From Clostridia bacterium (GTDB taxonomy: Bacteria > Bacillota > Clostridia > Christensenellales > Borkfalkiaceae): a stretch of DNA of 64,000 nt. The position numbers were made by a program, and so were the translations under genes. Below the pieces are notes generated by a model. It did not search any database. It was not told the origin of the DNA and saw only the letters and a program-made list of their open reading frames with translations. The stretch is taken from positions 1 to 64,000 of the forward strand of contig JAIEFR010000003.1 in NCBI GenBank assembly GCA_029066845.1, in the 5' to 3' direction. Every line of letters starts with the position of its first letter. The first letter of the stretch is position 1. This document shows, piece by piece, positions 54,875-64,000 of this stretch.

Positions 54875-55621
54875 CTAGATTAAATCTTCACGATTCATAT
54901 CATTAAAAGAAATCGATATTTTATCTACTTTGTATAATCTAGAATTTATTGCTTCGCAATCATCCGGATAAAAGAATACGATATTATCGCCTTCTGGTAA
55001 CAAAGAACTTTCGAAAATAACGCCCTCAAATCCCATGTTAATAAATTGTCCTGCTAAATATTGAGTAAACCAATATTTATGCCCAGCATAATGAGGTCTT
55101 GAAAACTCTATTGATATCTGTTTCAAAAGGGTAGCAAGTACTTCATTTTCACGCAATCTTCGTGATGTGCTTTTTCTTAAATCCGCAAAGCAAAGCTCTC
55201 TTCTTGTAACAAATTCGGCAATAGAAATTATTTCACGTTTTATCGGTCGTAATTCATAAATTACCGTCTTAGGATCATTACAAGTATAAAGGAAAGAGAT
55301 ACCATTGCAATTAAGTCTACCTTCTATAGCAAGCGCGTTAGGCGGCGCACCAGACTTATCTTTGCCATATCCTTGAAATATCTTTTCATCAGACTTTACA
55401 AACGCTAAATATTCTTCATCGGTTGTTATAACATCTCCAAAATTGAATATTCTACCTCTAAAGAAAGATTGCCCTTCGCGTATATGAATAGAATATAAAT
55501 CTATATTACTATCTAATACTGATAACAAAGGACTTTTGATATCAAACCTATTAAAAGTATTAACAATCCTCTTCCATTCATAGAAATTGGCACGAACTTG
55601 TTTTCTTAATTCTCTATCCAT
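54875..55621 (-). CDS. RES-domain protein
   Basis: A 248-residue protein with a RES domain (about 45-225), named for conserved Arg, Glu and Ser. Visible family features are the early arginine region (FFRGRIFNFG), EGRLNCNGISFLYTCNDPKT followed by YELRP, and the late GFEGVIFESSLLPEGDNIV. RES proteins in toxin-antitoxin pairs degrade NAD+; larger RES proteins also occur in defence islands. No partner antitoxin (Xre-like) lies beside it here, so a toxin role is only possible. ATG with AAGGA; own consensus promoter about 100 bases upstream. Confidence 0.8.
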   Translation of the reverse strand: MDRELRKQVRANFYEWKRIVNTFNRFDIKSPLLSVLDSNIDLYSIHIREGQSFFRGRIFNFGDVITTDEEYLAFVKSDEKIFQGYGKDKSGAPPNALAIEGRLNCNGISFLYTCNDPKTVIYELRPIKREIISIAEFVTRRELCFADLRKSTSRRLRENEVLATLLKQISIEFSRPHYAGHKYWFTQYLAGQFINMGFEGVIFESSLLPEGDNIVFFYPDDCEAINSRLYKVDKISISFNDMNREDLI

Positions 55622-56194: not shown

Positions 56195-57922
56195 TTATTC
56201 TTCTATTTCAAAAACATCCTTTAATATTTTTGTAGAAAATTTATGATATTGGCTAGATGTGTAAGGAAAATTTTCATTTGAAAAATCAAACTGCCAATTT
56301 TTAAATTTTTCATTATAAAATTCGAAATCTTTTATTCCGTTATATTTTAATTGCCTTGTTAGAGCAATAATGAAGCCATTTAACGAAATGACTGAAAGCA
56401 ACTTAGACTTTTCATCTTCCCAATACATTTTAAAGTTCTTTTTTATTGCGGAAAAATACTGATTAATTATATCGGCGCAAAACTTAACATAATCGTTTAA
56501 AGCAGTATCATCTGCTTTCATCAATAGATATTGATCTCCATTCCAATAGTTAATCAAGCTGTTCCTCCCTTCTGAAGGATCAACAGTAACTAAATAACGT
56601 AAAGCAAATTTTACTATTGATGCAGTTTTGATTTTTGCTTTGTCAAGAGAAGATATCTGTAAAAGCCTTTGGAATACACCAAATCTATTGAGCCTTTCTA
56701 TTACAAATTGAGCAATACTTTCGCTATCAAGAGGATTCTGGATACGTTTAATTTGAAGCAAAACATTTTGTGGAACTGCTTTGGTATTAGAATTAATATC
56801 TAAGAATATATCGCTTTGTATTTTTGCCCGTTGTTCTGAAGAAAGCCCTTTGGGGGAAATTAGTCCGGTAACAAGCAAATGAAGCTTAGGTCTCAAACTC
56901 GCAATTGTTCTTTCTTGCTTACTGTCTACACCGCTCTTATAATGTGCATATACTCTATGTTGTCCATCGATTATACAAATACTATTCATTTCTTTTGGAA
57001 TTATCAACTTGCAGTTTTCTTCTAAACTTGCTATTTGATCTATTGTTTGAAAATTTCCTGCGGCGTCCTGAAAAGAAACGTTATCTGGCAAAGCAACAAT
57101 AATATTATTATAAAAGGCTTCTCCTTTTCTCTCAAGAAATTCTCTTATCTTTTTAATTTTGCTTTTTTCAATCAACCGTTGATAAAGCCAAATTGAATCA
57201 CTCCAGTTATCCTTTCTGAGGACATAACAAGTACTTAGCAAATCCTCTGCCGACATCATAAATGAAACCAGCCTCACACCATTTTTAATACCTGTAAATT
57301 CTCTAGGATAGATTATAGGAGCCTTTATTGTGGCTGCTTCTGTAGAACTTGAAACAAACCCAATTTGATCGTTGTTTAATTCTAAAAATCTGAAGATTTC
57401 ATAAATTGCAGAGCGTTTAATACAACCCACTATCCATTTAAAGTAATTAAGTGTTTTAGGTTGCACAAAAATTAAATTACTAAATAAATTATAATCGTTA
57501 TCATTTAAATCAAGCTCGTCGCGAGGAATATATAGGCAAAATAATTTTATCCGATTAAAATCATATTTATTGAGCAATTCAGCTTTATCTGGAAAAGTTT
57601 CTTTTAAAAAAGTTAAAAATGTCGATAAATTTTGCTTTATTGAGCCAAAGGCTTCATTTTTCGTTCTTATGTGATCTCGATCGTTTTTAGCAATAGTATC
57701 TTCACATAATATCCAGATATTTTCGTAAATGAACATGGAGTCTACTTCAACTGCCCTATATCCCACATTAGCTTCTTTCCCGCCTGTCGATAAATATGTA
57801 AATCCAGCATCGGTAAAAATCTTAAATATTTTATTTTTCAAAACTCGCTTTTCACGTTTCTGAGCTTGCTCACGCTTTTGCTCTTCAGTCAATATTTTCT
57901 TCTTACGTTTAGCTTTCTTCAT
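56195..57922 (-). CDS. DGQHR-domain protein with nuclease-like N-terminus
   Basis: A 575-residue protein. The central motif SICIIDGQHRVYAHYKSG (about residues 315-332) defines the DGQHR family (DndB-like, ParB/sulfiredoxin-related fold). DndB regulates DNA phosphorothioation; related DGQ motifs occur in restriction enzymes of the DUF262 type. The lysine-rich N-terminus (1-30) is followed by EVDSMFIYENIWILCEDT (about 58-75), which recalls a PD-(D/E)XK nuclease core (E-x-D...E-x-T) but with Thr where Lys is usual. The start lies inside the methyltransferase gene (14-base overlap, AAGGAG upstream), so the two are co-translated. Likely the effector or regulator of that methyltransferase. Confidence 0.8.
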   Translation of the reverse strand: MKKAKRKKKILTEEQKREQAQKREKRVLKNKIFKIFTDAGFTYLSTGGKEANVGYRAVEVDSMFIYENIWILCEDTIAKNDRDHIRTKNEAFGSIKQNLSTFLTFLKETFPDKAELLNKYDFNRIKLFCLYIPRDELDLNDNDYNLFSNLIFVQPKTLNYFKWIVGCIKRSAIYEIFRFLELNNDQIGFVSSSTEAATIKAPIIYPREFTGIKNGVRLVSFMMSAEDLLSTCYVLRKDNWSDSIWLYQRLIEKSKIKKIREFLERKGEAFYNNIIVALPDNVSFQDAAGNFQTIDQIASLEENCKLIIPKEMNSICIIDGQHRVYAHYKSGVDSKQERTIASLRPKLHLLVTGLISPKGLSSEQRAKIQSDIFLDINSNTKAVPQNVLLQIKRIQNPLDSESIAQFVIERLNRFGVFQRLLQISSLDKAKIKTASIVKFALRYLVTVDPSEGRNSLINYWNGDQYLLMKADDTALNDYVKFCADIINQYFSAIKKNFKMYWEDEKSKLLSVISLNGFIIALTRQLKYNGIKDFEFYNEKFKNWQFDFSNENFPYTSSQYHKFSTKILKDVFEIEE

Positions 57923-58823
57923 ATTTCTTTCTCCTTGCTAAAGCAAATTCTTCCGGCAATTTTGCTACTGCCATATTTTTATCTGGAACCATAGAAGGTT
58001 TATCTTGTCTAAATTTAATAATTCCTTCTTTTGCCTCTTTTATTCGTTTTTCAGCGACCGCAAAATATTCTTTTTGAATTTCACATCCAATAAAATATTT
58101 CCTTTCTAATACAGCAGCTACGCCTGTTGTTCCCACTCCCATAAATGGATCTAAAACGACTCCATTTTCAGGAGCTAACGCTTTTATTAATCTTTGAGGA
58201 ATAGCGACAGGGAATTGGCAAGGATGAATAGTTTTTTCTATATGATTCGCTTTAACATTGGGTATTTCCCATACATCTGAAGGGTTTTTGCCCAACGGAT
58301 TTCCACTTAGCTGCCCTTTATTTTCACCTTTATAATGACGTTTACCAGGATACTTTTGAGGCACACGAACTTCATCTAAATTAAATGAATACTTGTTACC
58401 TTTGGTAAACCATAAAATAGTTTCGTGACGCCCACTAAATCGCATCGTACTATTCAATCCATGACCAAAAGTCCATATAATTCTATTTCTTAAAATTAAT
58501 GGATTAGACTGTTGATTACTTTTTGAGGTAAATAAATCGTAAATGATATAATCCAAAGGAATTATACTTGAATCAGTAACATGATAACCGATCTGCCAGC
58601 ATATGCTCCCGCCGACCTTTAAAATCCTATAAATTTCATCAAAAATTACTTCATGATGCATTTTAAAAGTTCTTATATCATCTTTAGGATTTTCATAAGC
58701 CTTTTTCATACAATAGGGTGGAGAAGTTATAATTAAATCTACCGATTCACTCTCTAAAGTTTTCAAACGCTCAATGCAATCACCATTAAACAACTCACAA
58801 ACATTATTTAATTCCAAAGCCAT
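57909..58823 (-). CDS. DNA methyltransferase, beta-class N4-cytosine/N6-adenine type
   Basis: A 304-residue SAM-dependent DNA amino-methyltransferase. The catalytic motif IV, IITSPPYCMKK (about residues 31-41), comes before the SAM-binding motif I, VVLDPFMGVGTTGVAA (about 218-233), which is the beta-class order. TSPPY is frequent in N4-cytosine enzymes, so m4C is slightly favoured over m6A. It has a GDCIERL start region and ILKVGGSICWQIG. The target site cannot be predicted. It overlaps the downstream DGQHR gene by 14 bases, and its promoter carries a perfect palindrome, suggesting auto- or controller regulation. Confidence 0.92.
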   Translation of the reverse strand: MALELNNVCELFNGDCIERLKTLESESVDLIITSPPYCMKKAYENPKDDIRTFKMHHEVIFDEIYRILKVGGSICWQIGYHVTDSSIIPLDYIIYDLFTSKSNQQSNPLILRNRIIWTFGHGLNSTMRFSGRHETILWFTKGNKYSFNLDEVRVPQKYPGKRHYKGENKGQLSGNPLGKNPSDVWEIPNVKANHIEKTIHPCQFPVAIPQRLIKALAPENGVVLDPFMGVGTTGVAAVLERKYFIGCEIQKEYFAVAEKRIKEAKEGIIKFRQDKPSMVPDKNMAVAKLPEEFALARRKKYEES

Positions 58824-59232: not shown

Positions 59233-62200
59233 TTATCCTATCCCAAAAAATCTTTCGAAGAATGCTTGCAATTTGTCTATGATTGTTTGTTTCTTTTTAG
59301 TTCTGTCCCCACTTCCGAATCTTGAAATGGGCGGCATTATTTTATCGATATCTGTGCCTGTGGTTTTAATTTGTCCGTCTCTGAAAGAGTTTTCAATATA
59401 CTTGCGTGTTTCGTCGGGCTTCAAATTTTCCTGAGCTATGATTTCTAATAGTTGCTTTTCTTTCTGCGCCGAAACGTATTCGCGCCATTCAATCATTACG
59501 TCCGAAACATCATTGACCCCATTGATAAAGTTCTCTATCAATGCCTTTTTGCTACGAAGTTCAGGACTTGCATCAATAGCTTTTTGAATAGTTATGAGTA
59601 CTTCTTTATCTTGACAATGTGTGTCGTGATATTTCTGAACAAGCAACAGAATATAATCAATATTTATTTCAATTTGCTTAATAAGCTCTAATTCAAAAAC
59701 GACATCGTCAGTGATATCTTCTTTTTCACCACTTTCACGTCGAGCTTTCCATTCATCGCGCAAGTCCTGATATCTGCTGAGATAATCTTGCAAATCTCGT
59801 TCCGAAAGAATTTCGTTACCGGCAAACTCGTCAAACGAGGTCAATAGATTACGCATACGAAGAATTGCACCGAATAGAACAATAAAATCTTTCTGATTTT
59901 TCTCTCCCGTAATACGCTCTTCAGCAAGCGGGAATAAGGTAGTTAACTCATCTATTAAATCAACATAGCCTTTTTTATAATTACCTTTTGCATCCGTATA
60001 GCCGAAATAGTAGTCTTTATAGCCACGCATAATGACTATACCGCCTGCTTCTTTATCCCCGAAAACTGAAATAGCATCGTCTGTGCGCTTTTGCAAGTTA
60101 CGGAAGCAAACTATATTACCGAATGTTTTAATTGAGTTCAAAATTCGATTAGTTCGTGAATATGCTTGAACTAATCCGTGCATTTTAAGATTTTTATCAA
60201 CCCACAGCGCATTAAGCGTTGTTGCATCAAATCCCGTCAAAAACATATTGACAACGATAAGCAAATCAATTTCTTTGTTTTTCATGCGTAGCGAAATGTC
60301 TTTATAATAATTTGGGAATTTCTCGCTCGAAGTGTCGTAATTCGTGTCAAAAATTTTGTTATATTCGTCTATCGCATTGTCCAGGAACTCTCTTGAAGAA
60401 CTGTCAAGCCCGTTGGTATCGTCCGAATTTTCCTCACCGAGCAACCCGTCCTCCTCTTCCTCGTTTTGCGCAAAACTGTAAATAGTCGCAATCCTAATCG
60501 CTTTTTCAGGATGCTCCTTCATTTGCTTTTTAAACTCGGTATAATAAGCCTTTGCTGCCTCAATTGACGAAACCGCAAAGATTGAGTTAAACCCTTTAGT
60601 ATGAACGGGCGCTTTCAACTCAGTAATTTCATTACCGCCCCTAGCTTTTACAACCTCATTGATATTGGTAAGCTTACTAAACAGATAAGCCCTCTCATCA
60701 CGCTTAGTTTTTTGGTTGAAATGTTCAAGGATATAGCTAACTACACCAGAAATTCTTTCCGGCTTCATGAAAGCTTTTTCCCTGTCAATATCTCTTACTT
60801 CTTTGTCGTCAATGTCAGGTTCTTTATCAAGAGTTCTTATGAAATCCACACGGAAAGGCAAGACATTTTTATCATTAATCGCATTGACAATCGTATAAAT
60901 ATGTAGCTTGTCCCCAAATGCCTGCTCTGTCGTTTGTAACTTAGGATTTTTAGATGCCCCAGAATTAACTGCAAAAATCGGCGTACCCGTAAAACCAAAC
61001 AAATGATACTTCTTAAAATAATTAGTAATCATTGTGTGCATATCGCCGAACTGACTGCGATGGCACTCATCAAAGATAATTACAATGTGTTTATCGGCAA
61101 CAGGATGACCAGCGTTCTTTTTTACAAAAATGCTGAGCTTTTGAATAGTTGTAATAATGATTTTGCTATTATTATCTTCTAACTGCCTCTTTAAAATCGC
61201 AGTTGACGTATTACCGTTTGCCGCACCCTTTTCAAAACGATCATATTCCTTCATCGTCTGATAGTCTAAGTCTTTCCTATCGACAACAAACAAAACTTTA
61301 TCAATATAATCAAGCTCAGTGGCAAGCTGCGCCGTCTTAAAAGAGGTAAGCGTTTTCCCGCTTCCCGTAGTATGCCAAATATAGCCGCCTCCGGCTACAG
61401 TGCCGTACTTCTTATAATTGTTAGCTACCTCAATTCTGTTGATAATGCGTTCAGTAGCAACAATCTGATAAGGCCGCATTACGAGCAGCATCTTTTCCGA
61501 TGTGAACACGCAATACTTCGTTAAAATATTTAGTATAACATGCTTAGCGAAAAACGTTTTCGTAAAGTCAATCAGATCGGGAATTATCTTATTGTTCCCG
61601 TCCGCCCAAAATGATGTAAATTCAAAGCTGTTACTTGTCTTGCCCTTTTTGTTTGACGAATTGCCTTCTTTGATATGATTCCAACGAGTCGTATTGGAAT
61701 AATACTTCGTATGAGTACCGTTAGATATAACGAAAATCTGAACGTATTCGAACAATCCAGAAGCCGCCCAAAAAGATTCACGTTGATAACGGTTAATCTG
61801 ATTAAACGCTTCGCGGATGGCAACACCTCTACGCTTTAACTCTATATGTATTAAAGGCAGACCGTTTACTAAAATAGTGACATCGTAGCGGTTTTTATAA
61901 CTGCCGCTATCTTCCGAATATTGATTGATTACTTGTAATTTATTATTGTGAATATCCTTTTTATCGATTAACAGAATATTCTTTGTTTCACCGTTATCTC
62001 TATGTAATATCTGAACGTGGTCATCTTGTATTCGCCTTGTCTTTTCAACAATTCCGTCGTTCTGACCTGCAATACAGCTATTGAAAAACTGTTTCCACTC
62101 ACTATCGGTGAAAACGTAATTATTTAACTCTTCCAGCTTTTTACGAAGATTGGAAATGAGTTCGGCTTCCTTATGAATAGGTAAATATTCATAGCTCATA

Positions 62201-62334
62201 TCCCCGAGCAACTTTATAAATTCTCTTTCGAGTTCAGCTTCGCTTTGATATGCTTCCGAACGCTTTGCCTCGGGCTTATATTCAGATACGACTGTACATT
62301 CACTGCTCTGTACCACGACGTTAAAATAACTCAT
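59233..62334 (-). CDS. hsdR: Type I restriction enzyme R subunit HsdR
   Basis: A 1033-residue motor-nuclease of a type I restriction system. The N-terminal PD-(D/E)XK nuclease has YDVTILVNGLPLIHIELKRRG (Asp...Glu-x-Lys, about residues 150-170). The SF2 motor has Walker A HTTGSGKTLTS (about 325), the DEAD-type motif IIFDECHRSQFG, GFTGTP and the later helicase motifs (VNMFLTGFDAT). The helical C-terminus (about 850-1020) contacts the methyltransferase core. The second ATG (62334) is chosen because AAGGA lies 12 bases before it. It overlaps the membrane-protein gene by 14 bases. No inactivating mutation is seen. Confidence 0.95.
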   Translation of the reverse strand: MSYFNVVVQSSECTVVSEYKPEAKRSEAYQSEAELEREFIKLLGDMSYEYLPIHKEAELISNLRKKLEELNNYVFTDSEWKQFFNSCIAGQNDGIVEKTRRIQDDHVQILHRDNGETKNILLIDKKDIHNNKLQVINQYSEDSGSYKNRYDVTILVNGLPLIHIELKRRGVAIREAFNQINRYQRESFWAASGLFEYVQIFVISNGTHTKYYSNTTRWNHIKEGNSSNKKGKTSNSFEFTSFWADGNNKIIPDLIDFTKTFFAKHVILNILTKYCVFTSEKMLLVMRPYQIVATERIINRIEVANNYKKYGTVAGGGYIWHTTGSGKTLTSFKTAQLATELDYIDKVLFVVDRKDLDYQTMKEYDRFEKGAANGNTSTAILKRQLEDNNSKIIITTIQKLSIFVKKNAGHPVADKHIVIIFDECHRSQFGDMHTMITNYFKKYHLFGFTGTPIFAVNSGASKNPKLQTTEQAFGDKLHIYTIVNAINDKNVLPFRVDFIRTLDKEPDIDDKEVRDIDREKAFMKPERISGVVSYILEHFNQKTKRDERAYLFSKLTNINEVVKARGGNEITELKAPVHTKGFNSIFAVSSIEAAKAYYTEFKKQMKEHPEKAIRIATIYSFAQNEEEEDGLLGEENSDDTNGLDSSSREFLDNAIDEYNKIFDTNYDTSSEKFPNYYKDISLRMKNKEIDLLIVVNMFLTGFDATTLNALWVDKNLKMHGLVQAYSRTNRILNSIKTFGNIVCFRNLQKRTDDAISVFGDKEAGGIVIMRGYKDYYFGYTDAKGNYKKGYVDLIDELTTLFPLAEERITGEKNQKDFIVLFGAILRMRNLLTSFDEFAGNEILSERDLQDYLSRYQDLRDEWKARRESGEKEDITDDVVFELELIKQIEINIDYILLLVQKYHDTHCQDKEVLITIQKAIDASPELRSKKALIENFINGVNDVSDVMIEWREYVSAQKEKQLLEIIAQENLKPDETRKYIENSFRDGQIKTTGTDIDKIMPPISRFGSGDRTKKKQTIIDKLQAFFERFFGIG

Positions 62335-62983
62335 ATATGACATCCTTTAATAACGCAATTATAGCTATCGTAGCAGAAATAAATGATATTACAATTGAAA
62401 TTTTTGAATTATGAGATGCAAGTATATTTAAAATAAAATTATCGTCTTTAATATATGTAGCTTCATAATAAGCAAGTCTATTTCTTAATGCAAACAAGAA
62501 TAAACAAATCGAAAAAATAAACAGTAATAATCCTATATACCAAGGTATTAAATTCAAAACGAGCAACGTAACAGTACCTGCCACAATAAATAAAGAAAAA
62601 ATTAAATATGTGAGTCCCACAAACAGGTAGTTATTTGACAGCTCCATATTCAAAGAAGTGGAAATCATCTTATGCCCTCTTATTTTTTTAGAAGGCATAA
62701 ATAATAATTTTAAGCCACATATAAGTCCATTTAATCCACTCAAAAATTCTGCAAAAATACTTTTTGATTTTGAATAATCTTTATAACCGATTTCTTCTCT
62801 CCACTTTTGTCTTTCTTGCTCTAGCTTATCCTTCTCATTTTGCTTTCTTTGTTCTTCTGCTTGCAATAAAGCATTAGCAATTATATTTTGCAATTCTTCT
62901 GGCGTAATTTGTAGGAAAGTATTATTTGAAGTTTGCTTTTTAGGTGTCACTTGTTGTTTCACCCTTGTCTTTTTCTTTGGCAT
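62321..62983 (-). CDS. Membrane protein inside the type I restriction operon
   Basis: A 220-residue protein of unknown function. A basic N-terminus (MPKKKTRVKQQVTPKK) leads to a charged coiled coil (about 30-65, Gln/Glu/Lys-rich). Two adjacent membrane segments follow (about 117-138 and 143-167), then a third hydrophobic stretch near the C-terminus (about 193-214). It lies 14 bases after the hsdS end with its own ribosome site (AAAAGGA) and overlaps hsdR by 14 bases, so it is co-transcribed and probably coupled. Such an insert is unusual for hsd loci, which normally hold only hsdM, hsdS and hsdR, or occasionally toxins or RloABC genes. Confidence 0.8.
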   Translation of the reverse strand: MPKKKTRVKQQVTPKKQTSNNTFLQITPEELQNIIANALLQAEEQRKQNEKDKLEQERQKWREEIGYKDYSKSKSIFAEFLSGLNGLICGLKLLFMPSKKIRGHKMISTSLNMELSNNYLFVGLTYLIFSLFIVAGTVTLLVLNLIPWYIGLLLFIFSICLFLFALRNRLAYYEATYIKDDNFILNILASHNSKISIVISFISATIAIIALLKDVIYELF

Positions 62984-62997
62984 TAAGTCCTTTTCTC

Positions 62998-63540
62998 CTA
63001 AAATTTTAAAAGTTTATCTCTATAATATTCGTACTGTTTCTGTCTTGCTTCGATTTCAGCAGGTAAGCCTTCTGAAATATCGTTACAAAGCTTTTCAAAT
63101 CTATCCAAAATCTCGATAATATGTTGTTGATCTTTGATTGGGGGCAAGGAAAATTCGTATTTCAATATTTCGTATTTATTGCCTCGAGGCATCTTCGCTC
63201 CCTTTGAATGTTGCATATCAAAAGCAAAAAATTTATCGGAAGACAAAACATAGTACAGGAACTTCGGCAAAACAAAATCAATATTTGCTTGAATGACAAG
63301 GACATCACCATTTGTTCCACCGGCACAATCGGCTATCCATATTTTCTTTAAATATGGTCTAATGTTACCAACCAATGTATCTCCAGACTTAAAGACTATA
63401 CAACGTCCTTCGGTTGGTACATAAGACGATGCTTCCTTACCACGACGTTCTGGCAACAAATTATCAACACCAACATAATTTTCGGCATTGAGAATTTTCG
63501 CTTCAATTCTTTCCGTTGAATATTTTGCAACATCGCCCAA
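62998..63540 (-). CDS. hsdS: HsdS C-terminal half (second target-recognition domain)
   Basis: This 180-residue frame holds target-recognition domain 2 and the second conserved region of a type I specificity subunit. It begins GDVAKYSTERIEAK, has GDTLVGNIRPYLKKIW and LPKFLYYVLSSDKF, then LPPIKDQQHIIEILDRFE and GLPAEIEARQKQYEYYRDKL. It lies in a different frame from the N-terminal half; the frame is open upstream through the AGAC repeat (to about 63650). The apparent TTG start at 63540 has no good ribosome site, so as written it is probably not translated. A change in repeat number would fuse it to the first half. Confidence 0.8.
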   Translation of the reverse strand: MGDVAKYSTERIEAKILNAENYVGVDNLLPERRGKEASSYVPTEGRCIVFKSGDTLVGNIRPYLKKIWIADCAGGTNGDVLVIQANIDFVLPKFLYYVLSSDKFFAFDMQHSKGAKMPRGNKYEILKYEFSLPPIKDQQHIIEILDRFEKLCNDISEGLPAEIEARQKQYEYYRDKLLKF

Positions 63541-63581
63541 ACGAACAAACGCAAAACCGAAGACATATTGATATAGCCTAA

Positions 63582-64000
63582 TTAGGGCGTCTGTCTGTCT
63601 GTCTGTCTGTCTGTCTGATAGATTGTAGTCGAACTCAAATCGAAGGTCAACAGTTTATCACGATAATATTCATATTGTTGCTGTCTTTTTTCAATTTCTG
63701 CCGGCAAACCTATCCCTAAATCCGAACATATCGCGTCGAAATTTTCAAGAACGTTAACGATTCGTTCTTGCACATCAAGCGGCGGTAAAGGAAACTCAAA
63801 GTTATTAAACTTTTTCATATCTACTGAAGCAAAACTACCTTGATTTAAATTATTTTTACAATACTCATCAAGCAAATAACAATAGTAGAATAAAAATTTA
63901 ATATTGTACTTCTGTTTAAATTCATCCTTCAACATTAAATATGTAAATCTTTGATTCGCCAAAGATTCGCATGTTATCAATGCATGCTCTCCAATAGTTG
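63582..64000 (-). CDS. hsdS: HsdS N-terminal half, truncated by repeat-induced frame (5' end outside window)
   Basis: The open frame enters from the right edge without a start codon and ends at 63582, 138 codons later. It carries the end of target-recognition domain 1 (LANQRFTYLMLKDEF, KFLFYYCYLLDEYCK) and the central conserved region LPPLDVQERIVNVLENFD, then GLPAEIEKRQQQYEYYRDKL. That region closely matches the C-terminal region of the second half, as expected for duplicated HsdS arms. It then runs into QTDRQTDRQTP and a stop in the AGAC repeat. A half HsdS with one recognition domain can sometimes dimerise and still direct methylation in other systems. hsdM presumably lies further right. 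Confidence 0.85.
   Translation of the reverse strand, partial: TIGEHALITCESLANQRFTYLMLKDEFKQKYNIKFLFYYCYLLDEYCKNNLNQGSFASVDMKKFNNFEFPLPPLDVQERIVNVLENFDAICSDLGIGLPAEIEKRQQQYEYYRDKLLTFDLSSTTIYQTDRQTDRQTP
63589..63616 (-). repeat. Tetranucleotide repeat (AGAC)7 within hsdS
   Basis: Seven perfect GTCT units on the plus strand (AGAC on the coding strand), followed by one more G, at the junction of the two HsdS halves. It encodes T-D-R-Q in each three units. With n units the upstream frame reaches the second half only when n leaves remainder 2 on division by 3 (5, 8, 11). Seven units give ...TDRQTP-stop and six give RPN-stop. Confidence 0.93.

Follow-up and report, generated by a model that had tools for sequence, protein, structure and literature searches.

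At the type I restriction-modification locus of this Clostridia bacterium, a short AGAC repeat probably acts as a slipped-strand switch (probability about 0.72). With seven units, as assembled, the gene encodes an unfused two-TRD HsdS of the EcoR124 type, whereas five, eight or eleven units would fuse a third target recognition domain (TRD) to it, which would likely change or add methylated motifs. In the proposed mechanism, replication slippage, which we infer for the strain in question, would alter the number of units; two of the three registers would yield the ordinary two-TRD HsdS and one register the three-TRD HsdS. The latter would work with HsdM through alternative pairs of TRDs, by analogy with JHP1422 of Helicobacter pylori, and it is because of this precedent of different TRD pairs that the fused state is expected to change or add motifs. 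The initial annotation had likewise proposed a slippage switch, and part of this stands: the tract is placed so that its length decides the fusion of a TRD, and relatives are found in both frames. The proposed alternation between half and full HsdS does not hold, the predicted states being two and three TRDs.

The window, that is, the whole 64,000-nt stretch of DNA that was analysed, ends within hsdS. The tract consists of seven perfect AGAC units at positions 63589-63616 on the minus strand, as first described. It is the sole tetranucleotide array of at least four copies in the window, and none of 100 dinucleotide-preserving shuffles contained such a tract. In the whole 1.56-Mb genome, (AGAC)4 is present at one place, which is this tract (the four rows returned are overlapping registers of it). 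It lies 24 nt behind CR2, the second HsdS conserved region, of the C-terminal type (GLPAEIEKRQQQYEYYRDKLLTF; 63639-63788, minus strand), as located with the conserved-region HMM. The window holds the 3' part of hsdS (63582-64000, minus strand), but on the full contig the ORF that ends at the tract runs from an ATG at position 64793, beyond the window, to position 63582 and encodes 403 aa. A whole-genome profile search found three Methylase_S domains, all at the hsdS locus. Two are in the frame of the 403-aa ORF (64281-64757 and 63687-64205), whereas the third, with 51.3 bits, lies past the tract (63046-63552, minus strand) and is out of the hsdS frame at seven units. Given these positions, two before and one after the repeat, the 403-aa ORF corresponds to a whole HsdS, and the tract parts HsdS from a third TRD. 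The view that two halves of hsdS are joined at the tract was therefore an effect of the window cutting the gene; the contig beyond it shows a complete upstream HsdS and rules out a half versus full HsdS at this locus.

Phase counting gave the same result as in the initial annotation. With 5, 8 or 11 units the upstream ORF enters the frame of the downstream TRD, whereas 6 or 7 units lead to an early stop, seven units giving the ORF end ...QTDRQTP and six units another short tail. In the in-frame reading the tract encodes TDRQ repeats and is followed by the linker ALIRLYQYVFG in the TRD3 frame (63556-63588, minus strand), which in relatives has the conserved form L-I-R/K-L-x-Q-Y-V-F/Y-G and the DNA of which carries stops in both other frames. 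The TRD3 frame is free of stops over 196 codons, and CR3, the third conserved region, also of the C-terminal type by the same HMM, has a stop codon at its end (62998-63147, minus strand). Independent translation of TRD3 in the window appears weak: between 10 codons before and 30 codons after the linker start, the lone start codon is a TTG without a Shine-Dalgarno-like motif. A start codon with such a motif is found near the linker in 3 of 16 loci.

The surrounding genes are those of a complete type I system. HsdM, HsdS and HsdR are encoded together, as in the relatives of EcoR124 (type IC), and the full-length hsdM (525 aa) and hsdR (1036 aa, EcoR124_C type; 59233-62343, minus strand, downstream in the same operon direction) score far above curated cut-offs (TIGR00497, 703.6 bits against 242.75; TIGR00348, 558.1 against 284.55; PF12008 EcoR124_C, 237.7 against 23.1). 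HsdS itself contains two PF01420 stretches. A 220-aa ORF between TRD3 and hsdR (62321-62983, minus strand) matches no family in Pfam, NCBIfam or PADLOC, and neither do two ORFs of 215 and 273 aa between hsdM and hsdS (contig positions 64786-66326). Further downstream of hsdR, on the same strand, a DGQHR-domain protein (TIGR03187, 99 bits, with a weak likeness to DpdB/DndB) is encoded beside an N6/N4 DNA methylase (PF01555) at 56195-58823, and a RES-domain protein (PF08808) at 54875-55621.

The seven-unit product closely resembles the EcoR124 specificity subunit. It aligns with EcoR124II HsdS (404 aa) from residues 103-387 to 106-399, through the C-terminal conserved region. The AlphaFold model (pLDDT 87.1, pTM 0.62) superposes on the EcoR124 chain of PDB 7bst with TM-scores of 0.76/0.79 and an rmsd of 3.8 Å over 393 columns. 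Among solved structures, EcoR124I/II HsdS is the nearest in sequence to the two-TRD product, and the match in fold extends over the whole length; the 404-aa EcoR124 chain has neither a third TRD nor a slippage tract. By alignment and by model, the seven-unit product is a canonical, complete two-TRD HsdS in the EcoR124 arrangement. It is predicted to give a bipartite motif, contrary to the earlier expectation of no motif or a palindromic half-site motif. The initial annotation had further compared the tract with the TAEL repeats that set the spacing of the EcoR124 target. However, the TAEL-like repeats of this protein (AELTAELTA) are located in the central conserved region, between TRD1 and TRD2, about 650 bases upstream of the tract, where they align on the TAEL repeats of EcoR124II. 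The tail that holds the tract peptide (residues 390-403) has a pLDDT below 50 and is predicted to be disordered. We therefore rejected TDRQ as a TAEL-like spacer helix, since such repeats lie elsewhere, in the central helix, and together with the canonical nature of the seven-unit product this removes both the half-HsdS and the spacer readings here.

No polypeptide with three TRDs is encoded at the window's seven units; four related loci (L019, L061, L076 and L085) encode one. The model of the natural fused L019 protein (pLDDT 81.6, pTM 0.63) contains three TRD folds and a long central helix (147-185). A second helix (396-413) takes in the linker, and the tract peptide (384-400) is modelled with low confidence. 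Overall, the fused model matches known HsdS poorly (TM 0.26/0.41 to 7bst); its whole-chain structure matches are flexible, with an rmsd near 20 Å or more.

To place the tract among its relatives, the 80 best loci by HsdM similarity (L015-L094, to which the junction and layout counts refer) were collected in an HsdM scan, and hsdS was found with a conserved-region HMM made for this analysis. Most of these loci belong to Clostridia-type bacteria. They share ancestry, so the counts do not correspond to independent events, and two pairs, L011/L016 and L012/L019, each seem to represent one locus encountered twice. In 74 of the 80 loci a conserved region of hsdS could be read, and in 33 of these 74 a conserved region is followed within 90 nt by a short repeat, the distance being 22-27 nt in most cases. 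Such a repeat is thus not unusual among these loci, contrary to the initial annotation. In 941,355 bases, 27 of 29 tetranucleotide arrays of at least four copies sit at a junction of a conserved region and a TRD, and the remaining two belong to the same junction of L016; the other kinds of arrays away from junctions are six homopolymers of 9-15 and one heptamer. In L016 (11724-11924), a single hsdS junction carries several arrays in a row (CAGA5, ACAG5, A15, TAGA5, ACAG7) and is out of the third-TRD frame. Six junction units were observed: mostly GACA, but also AAGC (L035), ACGAGCA (L073), AC (L036, L077), AG (L075, L078) and poly-G (L041, L051). The position is conserved although the repeat unit varies, which suggests selection on the switch point itself, as far as can be judged from such comparisons.

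In 24 of the 33 loci the tract is situated behind the second conserved region: 12 have a tetranucleotide repeat and the third region on the contig, in 10 the contig ends in the tract or within 20 bases of it, and L073 and L075 have other units. The other nine have it behind the first conserved region, as in the half/full layout of NgoAV. L086, with conserved-region hits overlapping in different frames, and L025, with masked bases, are included in the overall counts but stand outside the 12 clean two-plus-one loci. Counting the repeat in related genomes, as the initial annotation advised, showed that hsdS homologues elsewhere do carry it, with 4 to 35 units and in both frames; L040 and L053 have only two or three units and look fixed. 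Among the 13 complete tetranucleotide two-plus-one loci, the window included, the third TRD is in frame in four (L019, L061, L076, L085) and out of frame in nine, the in-frame share being near one third.

Fused and truncated alleles are also found in protein databases. The natural fused L019 protein and the window HsdS served as queries, and for each the best 120 of about 8,000 scored proteins were evaluated. By the same HMM, three conserved regions are present in 86 of the 120 proteins listed for L019 and in 45 of the 117 new ones listed for the window HsdS, which makes 131 of 237, or 132 with the query. Of the latter, 117 were aligned (alignment A1), leaving out 12 apparent near-duplicates, one partial sequence and two entries named Streptococcus suis; a second alignment (A2) comprises the window protein and 64 listed two-region proteins. 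A repeat-type peptide, in some cases a single unit, occupies the second junction in 117 of the 132 three-region proteins and is absent from 15. The peptides are TDRQ (46), ERERE (29), SRAEQ (17), TERNG (11), KQAS (6) and others (8), and 92 of the 132 proteins have the strict linker motif. The DNA units behind SRAEQ, TERNG and TEQNR are deduced from the peptide period alone; the 5-nt unit AGCAG, guessed for SRAEQ, was found in 2 of 291 genomes, and in neither of them did the place examined adjoin a conserved region of hsdS. Five three-TRD proteins (P0102 and P0111, both named Streptococcus suis, P0056, P0079 and P0163) have a related linker (LLQWVFG, LLTWVFG and the like) and no junction repeat peptide, and from their sequences may perhaps be fixed three-TRD forms.

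The stretch from TRD1 to CR2 is 100% identical over 403 aa in fused proteins with differing repeat numbers (P0021, P0022) and in a truncated one (P0053), and the same holds over 399 aa for P0012 (fused) and P0055 (truncated). Variation in tract length is thus seen between near-identical alleles of other relatives and between loci, the window organism being known from one assembly. Among the matches listed, the nearest protein to the window HsdS besides itself is 76% identical. P0152 is a natural fused counterpart with the TRD2 and TRD3 classes of the window, its TRD3 being 72% identical.

The DNA behind the tract looks under purifying selection, even where it is out of frame, as judged from substitution patterns. 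For the 11-codon linker in 16 loci, pS is 0.59 and pN 0.195, and the rates of change at the three codon positions are 0.19, 0.22 and 0.45, the highest being at the third. In 13 pairs of TRD3 with more than 50% identity, pN/pS ranges from 0.07 to 0.48, also with one or both members out of frame; it is 0.31 for the window and L075 and 0.19 for L048 and L040. In both off-frames a stop is reached promptly, on average after 2.8 codons and in 31 of 32 cases within 10, whereas in a simple control with out-of-frame readings begun inside TRD3 the mean is 12.9 codons, and 0 of 20,000 resamples were as low as the off-frames. Owing to these prompt stops, proteins in the off-state end cleanly. Of the 132 TRD3 modules, 118 have a relative of at least 50% identity that occupies the first or second TRD position in another HsdS, which marks TRD3 as a recognition domain and not a tail. 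The TRD3 class of the window was not found at positions 1 or 2 in the compared set and occurs at position 3 only (P0152 with 72%, P0086 with 59% and P0153 with 35% identity). Within the family, this TRD3 is matched at E 1e-20 in 6 of 301 genomes, the window's included.

Other explanations of the tract were considered. Fusion of a third TRD could jam the two-TRD ring and leave the fused protein without activity, in which case the tract would do no more than turn the system off. The loss of the canonical match in the fused model, the TM-score to 7bst being 0.41 against 0.79 for the two-TRD protein when normalised to the target, leaves room for such a blocked protein, but the pTM of this model is just 0.63. 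We regard this reading as unlikely, because selection appears to act on the linker and TRD3, most TRD3 modules are related to TRDs in working positions of other HsdS, an active three-TRD HsdS is described for H. pylori (PMC3936762), and a bare stop would suffice to shut the system off. Less probable still is that the third TRD is a spare for TRD swapping by recombination between CR2 and CR3 and that the tract is incidental. Shuffling of TRDs between hsdS genes is well known, as stated in PMC7394358, and there are proteins that combine the same two TRDs with different third TRDs (P0009, P0021) or have the same two TRDs without a tract and with a CR3-like tail (P0117 beside P0087 and P0092). However, CR2 and CR3 of the window share at most nine identical bases in a row, for which reason their recombination was rejected here, and a silent cassette would leave the fixed-position repeats of six units, the conserved linker and the natural fused proteins unexplained. 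Shuffling by inversion of hsdS was also rejected: L004, the stretch of the contig from 62001 to 82000, has within L004:300-6000 no inverted pair longer than 25 nt (72% identity), and the best one, 20 nt at 90%, forms a hairpin whose loop is 1 nt.

Two further explanations are very improbable, and equally so. The locus could be an ordinary hsdS followed by a decaying third TRD, the tract having no role; indeed, there are just seven units, out of frame, no variation is seen in the window strain with its one assembly, and genome G304 of the same genus retains the tract and the linker but not the TRD. Against this, the window's TRD3 is stop-free over its whole frame and has a low pN/pS with L075, and the layout recurs in many relatives. 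Alternatively, the number of units may be an assembly error, the real population being fused or mixed. In 10 of the 80 relatives the contig ends in the tract behind CR2 or within 20 bases of it (11 with L083, where the tract is behind CR1), which indicates that assemblers break at such repeats. Yet a tract of 28 bases is small enough to lie inside a short read, other assemblies show the same layout in different frames, and a mixed population would itself support the switch.

Repeat-switched hsdS genes and three-TRD HsdS proteins are known separately, according to the descriptions of NgoAV and JHP1422. In NgoAV of Neisseria gonorrhoeae, a slippage tract in the type I hsdS sets the fusion of a downstream TRD ORF, and the motif changes from GCAN8TGC to GCAN7STCA (PMC9577141; also PMC7394358). 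As described in PMC9577141, the tract is a poly-G between TRD1 and TRD2, and the product changes from a 208-aa half S to a 410-aa full S. The window locus is similar in that, by frame arithmetic and by the presence of relatives in both frames, the tract length decides fusion with a downstream TRD ORF. It differs in that its tract is a tetranucleotide repeat behind an S subunit already complete with two TRDs, to which a third would be added, whereas the unfused NgoAV product, as described there, is a half S. More generally, hsdS genes with simple sequence repeats amount to 7.9%, and slippage-repeat hsdS form a known class that includes commensals, according to PMC7394358.

The precedent for the fused state comes from JHP1422/JHP1423 of H. 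pylori J99, where a three-TRD HsdS, a single S subunit, recognises two motifs through different TRD pairs, as PMC3936762 reports: TRD1 with TRD3 gives AAGN6TAAAG, and TRD2 with TRD3 gives AAGN5CTT. The paper also notes that three TRDs are predicted for several S subunits listed in REBASE, and its passages on JHP1422 describe no repeat switch. Following this account, TRD2 and TRD3 of JHP1422 are identical, whereas the three TRDs of the window differ and the third one is attached or not by a repeat tract. The paper also covers the type IIG enzyme JHP1272 of H. pylori, in which frame changes decide on an extra C-terminal domain and the specificity changes; by its description JHP1272 is a single-chain type IIG enzyme with homopolymer tracts, whereas the window encodes a type I S subunit. 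A search of titles and abstract openings, a set outside which the repeat survey of Atack et al. (FASEB J 2020) lies, found no paper on a repeat-switched three-TRD HsdS.

At roughly even odds, the window locus would be one member of a widespread and repeatedly invented class of type I phasevarions. In such a class, a hypermutable junction would toggle between two and three TRDs, so that one polypeptide would pass from a single motif to two or three simultaneously, the off-frames would be built for a clean stop and the third TRD would be a swappable cassette. The units seen as DNA at the junction between two and three TRDs are GACA, AAGC, ACGAGCA and AG, and more kinds are seen as peptides. If the three-TRD state is active, these bacteria would have a simple and reversible means of gaining a further restriction-modification specificity instead of exchanging one, and how a three-TRD HsdS picks its pair would become a testable structural question. 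For annotation, an hsdS ORF that appears 'half' or 'broken' may, if a short repeat lies next to it, be a switched cassette, and hsdS repeats are a recurrent point at which assemblies break and contigs end.

GACA tracts are also found away from hsdS. In the class-wide sample, (GACA)6 is present in 9 of 291 genomes, and in five of these nine, the window's included, it lies beside hsdS at the first places examined. Of 93 genomes from the genus, six carry the tract, and hsdS conserved regions adjoin it in four of the six, again with the window's. One of the loci from the genus, L095 (genome G304; 1367-1606), keeps an 18-unit tract and the conserved linker LIKLLQYVYGYAFVRL, the TRD behind being gone; a contig end lies just upstream of the tract. 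In another, L099 (genome G209; 502-1572 to about 1907), a gene that encodes an EcoRI-type adenine methyltransferase (PF13651, 498 bits) has a six-unit GACA tract at its 3' end, and past the tract two more partial copies of the C-terminal part of the methylase are present in short ORFs. Judging from this arrangement, L099 is perhaps a second repeat switch, one that would swap the methylase C-terminus.
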